Source of the DNA: Halorubrum sp. GN11_10-6_MGM
GTDB lineage: Archaea > Halobacteriota > Halobacteria > Halobacteriales > Haloferacaceae
NCBI RefSeq assembly: GCF_005435165.1
Contig: NZ_SGUC01000020.1
Span: 1-51,274 of the forward strand
DNA length: 51,274 nucleotides
Direction: 5' to 3'
In this document: positions 1,454 to 6,844 of the stretch, in pieces
Layout: each line of letters opens with the position of its first letter
Position numbering within the stretch: position 1 is the first letter of the stretch
Made by a program: the position numbers and the translations under genes
The notes under the pieces: model-generated
The model's input: the letters and a program-made list of their open reading frames with translations, nothing else
Told to the model about the DNA's origin: nothing
Databases searched by the model: none

Positions 1454-4400
1454 ATGGCAACGAACACCTCGGAGCCGGATCCGACGGACGGCGGGGACTT
1501 CGACTACACGGGAGGGGACGTGGAGCGGCCGGATCTCGTCGACGCGCTCGACCGGCGGGTAGACGGCGACGTGCGCTTCGACGACTACTCGAAGCGGCTG
1601 TACGCGACCGACGCCTCGGCGTACGAGGTCACCCCGATCGGCGTCGTGATACCGGAGTCGACCGCGGACGTGGCGGCCGTCCACGAGTACTGCTTCGAGG
1701 AAGGGGTCCCGGTCCTTCCGCGCGGCGGCGGCACCTCCCTCGCCGGACAGACCGTCAACGAGGCGGTCGTCCTCGACCTCACCGGCGAGATGGACGACGT
1801 GATATCGACGGACGCGGACGCGAAGCGGGCCCGCGTTCAGGCGGGCGCGTACGTCGGCGACCTCAACGCCGCGGTCGAGCCCGACGGCCTGAAGTTCGCG
1901 CCCGACCCGGCGTGGCGCGACAAGTCCGCCGTCGGCGGCGCCATCGGCAACAACTCCACCGGCTCGCACTCGCTGAAGTACGGCAAGACCGATCACTACG
2001 TCGAGGAGCTGGAGGTCGTCCTCGCGGACGGCACCGTGGCGACGTTCGGCGAGGTCGCGGTCGAGGAGCTCCGCGAGTCCGCCGACCCCGACGCCGACGG
2101 CCTCCTCCCGCGAATTCACGCCGAGGTCGTCCGGATACTCGACGAGGAGGCGGACGCGATCGACGAGCGGTTCCCGGAGCTGAAGCGGAACGTCTCCGGC
2201 TACAACCTCGACCGCCTGCTCGCCGAGTACCGCGGCGAACACGGCGAGGAGGGCGTCGTCAACCTCGGCCGCCTCCTCGCGGGCAGCGAGGGGACGCTCG
2301 CGACCGTGACCGAGGCGACGCTCTCGCTCGTCGAGATCCCCGAGACGAAGGCGGTCGCGCTGCTCACCTACGACGACCTCCTCGAAGCGATGGAGGACGT
2401 GGCGGCGTGTATCGAACACGACCCCGCCGCCGTCGAGGTGATGGACGACGTGCTGCTCGGGCTGGCGGCCGACACGCCGGAGTTCGAGGACGTGGTCGGC
2501 ATGCTCCCGGACGGCACCGACTCCGCGCTCCTCGTCGAGTTCTACGCCGACAGCGACGCCGATGGCAAACGGAAGGTCGCGGACCTCATCGCGGACCGGG
2601 TCGGCGCCGCCGCGAACGGAGGGGCCGGCGACGGAGACGGCGCCGTCGACACCGCGGTCGACCCGAGCGCCGGCGCCGCGGAGACCACGAGCCACCCCCG
2701 CCGCGCGAGCCACGCCATGGAGGCGCACGACCCCGAGAAGCGCGACCGCTTCTGGAAGATGCGCAAGGCCGGGCTCCCGATCCTCCTCTCGCGGACCACC
2801 GACGAGAAGCACATCTCCTTCATCGAGGACTGCGCCATCCCGCCGGAACACCTCCCGGAGTACACCCGCGAGTTTCAGCAGATCCTCGAGGACAACGACA
2901 CGTTCGCCACCTTCTACGCACACGCCGGGCCGGGCGTGCTCCACGTCCGCCCGCTGATCAACACGAAGGACGTCGACGACGTCGACGCGATGGTCGACAT
3001 CGCGGACCGCGTCACCGACGCGGTGGTCCGACTGGGCGGCTCCGTCTCGGGCGAACACGGCGACGGTCGTGCGCGCACGCAGTGGAACCGGAAGCTGTAC
3101 GGCGACGAGCTCTGGGGGACGTTCCGCGACCTCAAGACCGCGTTCGACCCCGACTGGCTGCTCAACCCGGGCAACGTCTGCGGCGACGTCGACATGCGCG
3201 AGAACCTCCGGTTCGACGCGGAGTACGAGTACGACGCCGGCTTCGACCCCGCGATGGAGTGGGCGGTCGACAACGGGATGCAGGGGATGGTCGAGCTCTG
3301 TCACGGCTGCGGCGGCTGTCGCGGCCCGCAGGACACCACCGGCGGCGTGATGTGCCCGACCTACCGCGCCGCCGACGAGGAGATCCAAGCGACCCGCGGC
3401 CGGGCGAACATGCTCCGCGGGGCCATGACCGGCGAACTCCCGGACGACCCGACGGACGACGAGTTCGTCACCGAGGTGATGGACCTCTGTGTCGGCTGTA
3501 AGGGCTGTAAGGTGGACTGTCCGAGCGGCGTCGACATGGCGAAACTGAAGGCGGAAGTCGAGCACGCGCACCACGAGGAACACGGGATCGACCTCCGGAC
3601 GCGGCTGCTCGGTCATTTCGAGTCGCTCGCGCCGCTCGCCTCGAAGTTCGCGCCGCTCTCGAACCTTCCGAACAAGATCCCCGGGAGCGGCCTCATCGCG
3701 GAGAAGGCGCTCGGGATCGCGGGCGAGCGCGACCTCCCGACGTTCCGCTCGGAGACGCTCGTCGACTGGTTCGAGGCGCGCGGCGGCGCGGGCGTCCCAC
3801 GCGACGAGGCCGACCGCGACGTGCTGCTTTTCCCCGACGTGTACACCACCTACACGAACCCCGGCGCGGGGAAGGCCGCGGTGCGCGTGTTAGAGGCCGC
3901 GAACTGCCACGTCGAGATCCCGGACGTGGACGGAAGCGGGCGCCCGCCCCACTCGAAGGGGATGATCGACGTGTCGCGCGCGACCGCCAAATCCGCCGTG
4001 GAGACGCTCGCGCCCGACGTCCATGACGGCTGGGAGGTTGTCGTCGTCGAGCCCTCCGACGCCGTGATGCTCCAGTCGGACTACCACGACCTGCTCGACG
4101 GCGACGCGAGCGACGTACCCGACGCCGACGTGGCTGCCGTCTCCGAGAACGCGTACGGGGTCATGGAGTACGTCGACGCGCATCGCCTCGACGAGGAGCT
4201 CCCGCTCGACGCCCCGACGGAGTCGCTCACTTACCACGGCCACTGCCACCAGAAGGCCACGAAGAAGGACCACCACGCGGTCGGCGTGCTGCGACGCGCC
4301 GGCTACGGCGTCGACCCGCTCGACTCCTCCTGTTGCGGGATGGCCGGCTCGTTCGGCTACGAGGCGGAGCACTACTCGATGAGCAAAGCGATCGGCGAGA

Positions 4401-4543
4401 ACCTGTTCGAGCAGGTCGACGCGAGCGACGGCGACGGCCTCGTCGCGCCCGGCACCTCCTGTCGGACGCAGCTGGAGGAGGGACCGGGCGAGGTGCCGGA
4501 GCCGTCGCATCCGATCGAGAAGCTGGCGGCCGCGCTGTCGTAG
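1454..4543 (+). CDS. FAD-linked and 4Fe-4S D-2-hydroxyacid dehydrogenase (YdiJ/GlcD-GlpC fusion type)
   Basis: A 1029-residue fusion. Residues ~45-560 form a GlcD-like FAD-linked oxidase; the FAD-binding PCMH motif RGGGTSLAGQ is at 90-99. Residues ~610-700 hold two 4Fe-4S motifs (C616xxC619xxC622 with a later CP, and C679xxC682xxC685xxxC689). The C-terminal part carries GlpC/HdrD-like cysteine motifs (CHCHQK near 926; SCCGMAGSFG with C960-C961). Length and order match bacterial YdiJ (about 1018 residues), which oxidises D-2-hydroxyglutarate; D-lactate is the other likely substrate. Electrons probably pass to the quinone pool. An acidic Gly/Asp-rich insert near 380-410 looks like a halophile loop. 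It stands alone. Confidence 0.88.
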   Translation: MATNTSEPDPTDGGDFDYTGGDVERPDLVDALDRRVDGDVRFDDYSKRLYATDASAYEVTPIGVVIPESTADVAAVHEYCFEEGVPVLPRGGGTSLAGQTVNEAVVLDLTGEMDDVISTDADAKRARVQAGAYVGDLNAAVEPDGLKFAPDPAWRDKSAVGGAIGNNSTGSHSLKYGKTDHYVEELEVVLADGTVATFGEVAVEELRESADPDADGLLPRIHAEVVRILDEEADAIDERFPELKRNVSGYNLDRLLAEYRGEHGEEGVVNLGRLLAGSEGTLATVTEATLSLVEIPETKAVALLTYDDLLEAMEDVAACIEHDPAAVEVMDDVLLGLAADTPEFEDVVGMLPDGTDSALLVEFYADSDADGKRKVADLIADRVGAAANGGAGDGDGAVDTAVDPSAGAAETTSHPRRASHAMEAHDPEKRDRFWKMRKAGLPILLSRTTDEKHISFIEDCAIPPEHLPEYTREFQQILEDNDTFATFYAHAGPGVLHVRPLINTKDVDDVDAMVDIADRVTDAVVRLGGSVSGEHGDGRARTQWNRKLYGDELWGTFRDLKTAFDPDWLLNPGNVCGDVDMRENLRFDAEYEYDAGFDPAMEWAVDNGMQGMVELCHGCGGCRGPQDTTGGVMCPTYRAADEEIQATRGRANMLRGAMTGELPDDPTDDEFVTEVMDLCVGCKGCKVDCPSGVDMAKLKAEVEHAHHEEHGIDLRTRLLGHFESLAPLASKFAPLSNLPNKIPGSGLIAEKALGIAGERDLPTFRSETLVDWFEARGGAGVPRDEADRDVLLFPDVYTTYTNPGAGKAAVRVLEAANCHVEIPDVDGSGRPPHSKGMIDVSRATAKSAVETLAPDVHDGWEVVVVEPSDAVMLQSDYHDLLDGDASDVPDADVAAVSENAYGVMEYVDAHRLDEELPLDAPTESLTYHGHCHQKATKKDHHAVGVLRRAGYGVDPLDSSCCGMAGSFGYEAEHYSMSKAIGENLFEQVDASDGDGLVAPGTSCRTQLEEGPGEVPEPSHPIEKLAAALS

Positions 4544-4811: not shown

Positions 4812-5807
4812 TCACTCAACCTTTTCGACCCGGTCGCGCTCGCGTTCCCGCCGCCGCCCCAACACCCGCTTGAACCCCTTTCCCGGCCCGCCCTCGATGG
4901 GCCACCCCTTCGTGCGCCACTGGGGAGGCTCCGGCGAGAACTCGGCGCACGACCCGGAACACTCCCGCGCTGTCGGAATCTTCCCCTTCGCCGCGCAGTG
5001 CGGGACGAGCGCCTTCCCCTCCCGGCGGAGTTCGAAGTGCCGACAGTCGGGTCGCATGGTGTCGTGGAACGAGCGCCAGCCTTTCCCGTATGCGCGCTCG
5101 GCGATCTCCAGCCGCAGCGTCTCGGTCTCGGCGTCGCGGCGCTCGCCCTCGGCGGGGCGCAGATCGCTCGGGTGCCACGCCACGTCGGCCGCGTCGGCGT
5201 CGACGCCCCCGGAGAAGTCGGTCGCGAGGATCCCGACCTCGACGGGCATCTCGCGGAGGAGCGCGGGCTCGACGCGCTCGCCGGTCGTCTCCGTCGCGAG
5301 CCACGCCTCGTCGGCGAGCGCGGTCTCGACGTCGTGTTCGAGCTGGTCGGCGAGCCTGTCGGCCGCGCTGGCGTCCAAGTCCGGCTTGTTCTCGACCGCG
5401 ACGATCCGCCGGACCCAGTCCGGGTACGGCCGCAGCCGGCGAATCTCGATCCGGTTGCCGTCGCGTCGTTTCTCGATCAGGTCCCGGCCGGCGGCGCGGT
5501 GAACGGCCCGCCGGACGTAGCGCCACGGGTAGCCGGGGTCGGGCAGCGCGTCGCGGTACCACGCCCACTCGGCCGGCGCGCCTCGGACGACGTGGAGGAG
5601 GTCGGAGTCGATGGTCCGGTCGCCGAACGCGCGCCGTGCCGCGAACGCCGCGGGATCGACCTCGATCACGACCGTGTCCCACCGGCGCTCCTTGGTGCCG
5701 AGCTGGCGGGCGATGAGCGCCGGTCGCGGCCCCGCGCTCGGGTGCCACGTCAACTCGGCGTACCGGCAGACCAGAAGCTCGTAGCCGAACTCGGCGTCGG
5801 GCGTCAC
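4812..5807 (-). CDS. DUF5787 family protein; PD-(D/E)XK nuclease-like with a cysteine cluster
   Basis: A 331-residue protein that I place in haloarchaeal DUF5787. Residues 129-141 read PDWVRRIVAVENK: Pro-Asp, eight residues, then Glu-x-Lys, which is the spacing of a PD-(D/E)XK nuclease core. Preceding strands (DTVVIEVD, 44-51) and a HTH-like basic middle (99-125) fit. Near the C-terminus four cysteines lie at 255, 271, 283 and 287, and one more is at 24; this resembles the Fe-S clamp of Cas4/AddB-type nucleases. The nuclease reading is inference. The tail (307-331) is Lys/Arg-rich, unusual in this acidic proteome, and could bind nucleic acid. The small membrane protein gene follows. Confidence 0.75.
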   Translation of the reverse strand: MTPDAEFGYELLVCRYAELTWHPSAGPRPALIARQLGTKERRWDTVVIEVDPAAFAARRAFGDRTIDSDLLHVVRGAPAEWAWYRDALPDPGYPWRYVRRAVHRAAGRDLIEKRRDGNRIEIRRLRPYPDWVRRIVAVENKPDLDASAADRLADQLEHDVETALADEAWLATETTGERVEPALLREMPVEVGILATDFSGGVDADAADVAWHPSDLRPAEGERRDAETETLRLEIAERAYGKGWRSFHDTMRPDCRHFELRREGKALVPHCAAKGKIPTARECSGSCAEFSPEPPQWRTKGWPIEGGPGKGFKRVLGRRRERERDRVEKVE

Positions 5808-5891: not shown

Positions 5892-6338
5892 TCAGACGTA
5901 GTTTCCGTTCTCCTCGTCTTTCCGTTCGTCGAGGTAGTCGTGGGCCTCCTCCAAGATGTCGCGCGGGCCGTCTTGGGTGATCGTGTTGAGCGCTTGGTCG
6001 TAGTCGCGCCACTGGAGGTCGCGGTGTTCCTTCGAGAGCTCGGCGCTCGCCTCGAACGAGCGGGCGATGAACAGGTGGACCGTCTTGTGGATGGTCTTCC
6101 CGTTCGCCTCGAACACGTAGTCGTACTCCCTGCGGAACCCGTCGATCAGCCGGAAATCCTCTATCCCGGCCTCCTCGCCGACTTCTCGTATCGCCGTCTG
6201 CTGGAGCTCCTCGTCCCCCTCGACCCCGCCTTTGGGGAACTCCCAGTCCCCCGGTCGGCTCTTCAGGAGCAAGTACTCCCGTTCGCCGCGGGTGTCGCGG
6301 AAGAGGATGGCTCCAGCGCTGGTCGCTTCGACCGTCAT
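5892..6338 (-). CDS. Nudix hydrolase, Ap4A pyrophosphatase-like
   Basis: A 148-residue Nudix protein beginning MTVEATSAGAILFRD. The Nudix box G-x5-E-x7-REVGEEAGI is complete (about residues 37-59), with the catalytic Glu pair in REVGEE. The size and the sequence around WEFPKGGVEGDE resemble bis(5'-nucleosyl)-tetraphosphatases, which clear Ap4A and similar nucleotides. The internal ATG at 6338 was preferred because it starts directly at the conserved first strand; a start seven codons upstream is possible. A CCTAAAG element about 25 bases upstream may be the promoter. The gene is monocistronic as far as visible. Confidence 0.9.
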   Translation of the reverse strand: MTVEATSAGAILFRDTRGEREYLLLKSRPGDWEFPKGGVEGDEELQQTAIREVGEEAGIEDFRLIDGFRREYDYVFEANGKTIHKTVHLFIARSFEASAELSKEHRDLQWRDYDQALNTITQDGPRDILEEAHDYLDERKDEENGNYV

Positions 6339-6511
6339 TAGCCGCAGGTAAGCGATCACCCCTAAAGAGCGTGTCGGAGTCTCGAACGGATCGGAACGGC
6401 TCGGCGGCGTCGACCGGTCTCCCGCCGGGATTCGCGGTGCGGTCGCACGCGCCGAGCGCGGGTAGATGCGCTTTTACCGCTCGGGAGGCCATTGACGCAC
6501 GACCCCCAGCC

Positions 6512-6844
6512 ATGACCTTCGTCACGAAACTCGACTTCGCGTCCGGCGACCGCGACGTACTCGTCGAGACCGTCCAAGAGCTCAAAGAGACGCTCGAACG
6601 CAAGGGTGCCGAGTGCAAGGGCCCGCACGCGAGCCCCTCGGAGCGCGTCACCGTCCCGCTGTACAAGGATCTCGCGCCCGGCGACGAGTTCTCGCCCTGG
6701 CGCTACGACGTCTACCGCCGCTCGATGGAGATACACGGCGCCGACGACATCGCGCGCGACGTCGTCGGCCGCGACTTCCCCGACTCGATCCACGTCGAGG
6801 TCGAGGTCGACCAGAAGAAGCCGCTCGGCCACCGGCGGGACTGA
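6512..6844 (+). CDS. S10-like ribosomal protein family member (uS10 paralogue)
   Basis: A 110-residue protein starting MTFVTKLDFASGDR. The arrangement of a first strand, a helix (LVETVQELKETLERKG), a conserved GP turn before a basic strand (VPLYKDL), and a final RRSMEIHG strand matches the uS10 fold. True archaeal S10 usually sits with elongation factor 1A; here the gene stands alone, so I read it as the second, haloarchaeal S10-like protein of unknown role. The ATG at 6512 is chosen because the upstream extension is not protein-like. Confidence 0.8.
   Translation: MTFVTKLDFASGDRDVLVETVQELKETLERKGAECKGPHASPSERVTVPLYKDLAPGDEFSPWRYDVYRRSMEIHGADDIARDVVGRDFPDSIHVEVEVDQKKPLGHRRD

Follow-up and report, generated by a model that had tools for sequence, protein, structure and literature searches.

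Almost every haloarchaeon sampled carries, usually in two versions that probably predate the diversification of the class, a protein family for which we found no published function. The question raised by the locus described here is what such a protein does. The locus lies in the window, i.e. the whole stretch of 51,274 nucleotides that was analysed, where a minus-strand open reading frame at 4812..5807, which begins with GTG at 5807 and stops at 4812, encodes a protein of 331 aa. The protein belongs to the family DUF5787 (PF19100), with an E-value of 3.9e-108 and 361.8 bits against a Pfam gathering cut-off of 25. A first-pass annotation had called the function of this family unassigned, and this was borne out: Pfam assigns none, NCBIfam contains no model matching the window's protein, and our literature search found no mention of DUF5787.

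The same annotation tentatively read the protein as a stand-alone Fe-S nuclease of DNA repair. Its observation was partly confirmed, and its interpretation as a whole is partly supported. In particular, we consider DUF5787 to be a PD-(D/E)XK-fold nuclease with a proposed active site and a predicted nuclease activity, and give this reading a probability of about 0.8. Family membership, conservation, fold prediction, the insert and the register of the active site were computed in this work; catalysis, the identity of the metal, the DNA substrate and a DNA-maintenance role of the kind known for MmcB are what we infer.

Distribution of the family and its two paralogs

A family search found DUF5787 in 240 of 242 Halobacteria genomes, almost always as two genes. 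The window genome contains paralog A, which is the gene considered here, and paralog B on contig 60 (L112:1447-2403). About 80 orthologs were collected as the paralog A sample; the aligned members of paralog B are 30-36% identical to A. Used as the query, paralog B matched all but one of 59 genomes taken from across the class, and nearly all of these 58 contain a high-scoring B-type gene alongside an A-type one. Since the two types occur together so regularly, the split between them is probably older than the spread of Halobacteria, and both paralogs are probably ancient.

Among 148 genomes of the phylum, only two weak matches were found outside Halobacteria and none was convincing; the one inspected corresponds to the zinc region of methionyl-tRNA synthetase and was dismissed. 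Some genomes appeared to contain a third copy. Most of these copies are one gene split by a gap, and two are a separate PD-(D/E)XK protein, encoded at loci L201 and L202.

Predicted fold and proposed active site

An AlphaFold2 model calculated with 55 orthologs has a pLDDT of 80.9 and a pTM of 0.78. Its core consists of helix 6-20, strands 30-37, 42-50 and 132-140, helix 146-162 and strand 167-173, with a further strand at 191-196, so that the predicted topology, alpha-beta-beta-beta-alpha-beta, is in the order of the PD-(D/E)XK superfamily. Asp44 (5676..5678, minus strand) opens strand 2, and Glu139 and Lys141 of the triplet Glu139-Asn140-Lys141 (5385..5393, minus strand) end strand 3. These residues provide what characterizes the superfamily, namely an Asp on strand 2 and (D/E)-x-K on strand 3. 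Between these two strands, the model places a winged-helix domain of about residues 60-126 (5430..5630, minus strand), which consists of three helices (68-76, 84-87 and 95-107) and a two-stranded wing (111-116 and 119-124).

Foldseek against the PDB gave no match at an E-value of 0.001 or better and returned mostly winged-helix proteins; the nuclease core surfaced in a second look with VIA-align. The best VIA-align matches are the restriction enzyme PaqCI (Z 11.3, 147 aligned residues, rmsd 3.1), the MmcB-family structure 3dnx, which is also MmcB-type by sequence (Z 11.2, 132 aligned, rmsd 2.9), and the XisH-like 2okf (Z 8.8). SfsA (7.9), Card1 (7.7), NucS (7.3) and EndoMS (7.2) follow with scores in a range compatible with a mere common arrangement, and AddB, Cas4 and RecB are not among the matches listed. 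Residues 66-126 match MarR- and ArsR-type domains in the same program (best Z 8.2). In a viral library, several MmcB-like proteins are among the best matches listed (E 0.002-0.004). At the sequence level, neither the protein nor a two-paralog profile found more than chance matches in the PDB. The sheet order of a nuclease is thus present in the AlphaFold2 model and matches PaqCI and 3dnx; together with the conservation and profile alignments described below, it supports the earlier assignment to the PD-(D/E)XK nucleases.

The choice of catalytic residues requires a correction. The first-pass annotation had described a "textbook PD-x8-ExK core", and the positions it gave, P129-D130-x8-E139-x-K141, are exact in the translated protein. 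The PD-x8-ExK pattern occurs in 0.7% of shuffles of the protein, and a looser nuclease-like pattern occurs in 88% of them. Because the looser pattern is so common, the bare motif proves little, and it is conservation that carries weight. In the alignment, all 112 proteins have both E139 and K141; E139 is also invariant in paralog B, and K141 is retained in 29 of 30 B members, the remaining one having N. This member, L122:1501-2445, is possibly inactive. Columns invariant across both paralogs include E18, R34, Q35, G37, D44, E139, Q155, D159, C255 and C287. Among these, Gln155-x3-Asp159 (5331..5345, minus strand) forms a motif-IV-like element in helix 146-162, and Glu18 lies with Cys14 in the first helix (5754..5768, minus strand); note that across relatives E18 was otherwise graded as almost invariant.

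In contrast, D130 (5418..5420, minus strand) is D in only 102 of the 112 proteins and gives way to E, N, G, A, T or Q in relatives. Thus, of the residues singled out in the earlier reading, E139, K141 (apart from the one K-to-N change) and the four C-terminal cysteines are conserved, but D130 is not. As it varies and precedes the strand that ends in ExK, D130 is probably not the catalytic Asp; moreover, the strand positions put it roughly one strand's length from E139, so it would not easily share a metal site with it. In the model, the invariant D44 fits better as the motif-II residue and is probably the catalytic Asp. With this correction of the motif reading, D130A would probably be a misleading experiment.

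The register of the active site was examined by profile alignment. Residues 52-127 were cut from the two-paralog alignment, a choice made by the analyst, and the remaining core was compared using hhalign. MmcB sequences were gathered with an approximate consensus as the query, after which database sequences alone were used. The core aligns with MmcB over 110 columns with a score of 29.3, against at most 21.2 for 200 column-shuffled MmcB profiles, and places D44 on the Asp of RRAD and E139-x-K141 at the E-x-K of MmcB; the probability of 27% is weak in absolute terms. With the protein of L201, the score is 42.7 (P 1e-5; at most 21.1 in 40 shuffles), and the alignment puts its D on D44, E-V-K on E-N-K and QL on QL. 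When the insert is retained, the scores are similar (29.0 for MmcB and 37.9 for L201), and the MmcB alignment then covers fewer columns. Given the low probability for MmcB and the analyst's decision to cut out the insert, we take these alignments as support and not as proof.

The Pfam model of DUF5787 itself finds L201:814-1851 at an E-value of 6.6e-5, over the ExK-QL region. In this protein, only a short hairpin lies between D and ExK, which agrees with the winged helix of DUF5787 being an insertion. The protein and its homolog in L202 are unannotated haloarchaeal proteins with the signature D - E-V-K - Q-L-D-T-Y, and neither has a Pfam match above cut-off. Near its start, the L201 protein perhaps contains a second domain of this type (DLVW...GLEVKN...QLEKY).

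The cysteine module and the gene neighbourhood

The C-terminal part of the protein contains the module Cys255-x15-Cys271-x11-Cys283-x3-Cys287 (4947..5045, minus strand), with a hairpin 258-263/266-271 in the model. The first-pass annotation located these four cysteines correctly and rightly pointed to a conserved cluster, but its "Cys24" is wrong, the sole N-terminal cysteine being Cys14. Both paralogs keep the four C-terminal residues, the single exception being a gapped MAG protein that lacks C271 and C283, and the spacing x11 of paralog A is x12 in B. Of about 142 proteins, three (two of A and one of B) have Ser in place of Cys14, and the two of these that were inspected at full length keep all four C-terminal cysteines. 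Judged from the sequence, the C-terminal cysteines likely bind a metal, either [4Fe-4S] or Zn. Folded alone, the module reached a pLDDT of 60, which is too poor for a structure search.

The window genome also encodes a DUF7140 membrane protein (L203:586-1629) with the C-terminal tail C-x2-C-x15-C-x12-C. This tail resembles that of paralog B in spacing and flanking residues; with an E-value of 0.02 at best, only the spacing is suggestive. Such tails may represent a small metal-binding motif that recurs among haloarchaea.

Directly upstream of the DUF5787 gene, with a gap of 84 bp, lies a gene for a NUDIX hydrolase of the bis(5'-nucleosyl)-tetraphosphatase type (5892..6359, minus strand; PF00293). 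Of 80 paralog A loci, 66 have a NUDIX gene upstream in the same orientation, usually within about 100 bp, and in Natronorubrum this neighbour bears the annotation bis(5'-nucleosyl)-tetraphosphatase. A gene for an S10-like ribosomal protein paralog, at 6371-6844 in the window, is oriented divergently to the NUDIX-DUF5787 pair in 65 of the 80 loci. A further gene, at 1454-4543 in the window, encodes a 1029-aa protein with FAD-linked oxidase, 4Fe-4S and CCG domains, of the one-chain glycolate or D-lactate dehydrogenase type; in 29 of 80 loci it converges on DUF5787.

Paralog B adjoins a translation/transcription operon, the group eIF2gamma - PIN_9 - Rpb7 - DUF359 - S24e in 11 of 20 loci (L145-L164), and the window genome's own B gene lies away from the eIF2gamma group. 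A gene of the metallo-beta-lactamase fold is found beside paralog B in 13 of the 20 loci. The settings of A and B are those of housekeeping genes and not of defence islands. Neither context, in 80 A loci and 20 B loci, points straight to repair.

Proposed function and comparison with known systems

We propose that D44, E139 and K141 would bind a divalent metal and cut the phosphodiester with Mg2+, with E18 and Q155 as helpers. The winged helix between strands 2 and 3 may grip duplex or branched DNA and present it to the adjacent active site, and the four C-terminal cysteines would hold a metal in a module that may be structural or redox-sensing. The protein would thereby act, much like MmcB, as a housekeeping enzyme of DNA maintenance. 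MmcB, according to PMC9578287 a PD-(D/E)XK endonuclease with a protective effect against mitomycin C in Caulobacter, is the nearest studied relative by fold, and a repair endonuclease is therefore our first hypothesis; taken alone, the role in DNA repair is put at somewhat under even odds. A more elaborate picture, which we regard as doubtful, is a duplicated, lineage-specific and nearly universal haloarchaeal nuclease system in which the winged helix splits the active site and the protein has a non-Cas4 [4Fe-4S] cluster of its own; sequence or structure would then guide the cut, redox state would affect it, and the tasks of DNA repair would be shared out between the two paralogs.

Several other readings can be weighed against this nuclease of DNA maintenance. 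The first-pass annotation favoured a stand-alone Fe-S exonuclease of the Cas4/AddB type, in which one N-terminal and three C-terminal cysteines clamp a [4Fe-4S] cluster (PMC3466216) and DNA ends are resected. The superfamily fold is the same, conserved cysteines occur early in the nuclease domain and at its end, and the tail is rich in Lys and Arg. The clamp itself is nevertheless unsupported, because the C-x2-C-x5-C seen in our alignment of haloarchaeal Cas4 is absent here, where the C-terminal spacing is x15, x11 and x3 and four cysteines are enough for a site; because Cys14 can be Ser in proteins that keep the C-terminal cysteines; and because hhalign detects no similarity with the haloarchaeal Cas4 profile (score 12.5, lower than for column shuffles, a result compatible with remote kinship). 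We consider this reading quite unlikely. A related protein holds Zn in the same place as the Cas4/AddB cluster (PMC3466216). Distinctly improbable, in our judgement, is a catalytically inactive descendant acting as a winged-helix DNA-binding regulator whose cysteine cluster senses redox or metal. The clear MarR/ArsR-type matches, the many cysteines and the one K141N member would fit it, but the retention of D44, E139, K141 and Q155 in two anciently split paralogs is not expected of a dead enzyme.

The neighbourhood could instead suggest a nuclease acting on RNA, or in the coupling of translation and transcription, rather than in DNA repair, given that B adjoins the eIF2gamma group in about half of its loci and A lies beside the S10-like gene and the Ap4A-type NUDIX hydrolase in most of its own. 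However, this adjacency is not universal, the B gene of the window genome itself being elsewhere, and DNA is favoured both by the closest folds and by the placement of a winged helix between the strands of the active site, so that we find the RNA reading rather unlikely. A restriction or other anti-phage defence nuclease might be thought of because PaqCI is among the closest folds, but it is highly improbable for a family so nearly universal in Halobacteria and with a recurring chromosomal neighbourhood; in addition, neither PADLOC nor PHROGs gave a match, phage records contained none, and only one plasmid-type replicon carries the family. The DNA-maintenance nuclease thus remains our preferred reading. 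As its putative active site, DNA-binding insert and metal site can now be named, they can be tested directly in Haloferax volcanii, which carries the family.

Among known systems, the best structural match is PaqCI (8em1), a type IIS enzyme with separate recognition and cleavage domains (PMC10201449), a feature to which DUF5787 can be likened. It differs in size and architecture and shares 8% identity, and DUF5787 is a core gene with no known modification partner. Cas4 and AddB share the superfamily and the conserved cysteines at both ends of the protein; they differ in the number and spacing of these cysteines and in the lack of a profile signal, and the winged-helix insert belongs to DUF5787. 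The L201 protein resembles DUF5787 in that its D - hairpin - G-I-E-V-K-S - Q-L-D-T-Y aligns with D44, ExK and QLxxD, whereas it lacks the winged helix between D and ExK, comprises 345 aa with a different preceding sequence, and occurs in two genomes only.

MmcB (PF06319; 3dnx, SPO1766) has the same PD-(D/E)XK core in the same order, with D followed by E-x-K and matching later strands, and DUF5787 shares with it both the core fold and, by profile alignment, the register of the active site. PF06319 is not among the Pfam matches of 30 DUF5787 members, and the window genome contains no match to it. Where DUF5787 has the winged helix, MmcB has a short hairpin, and it lacks the C-terminal cysteine module. 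As far as the model can be relied upon, DUF5787 very probably combines a PD-(D/E)XK core with a winged-helix insert and a non-Cas4 cysteine module.
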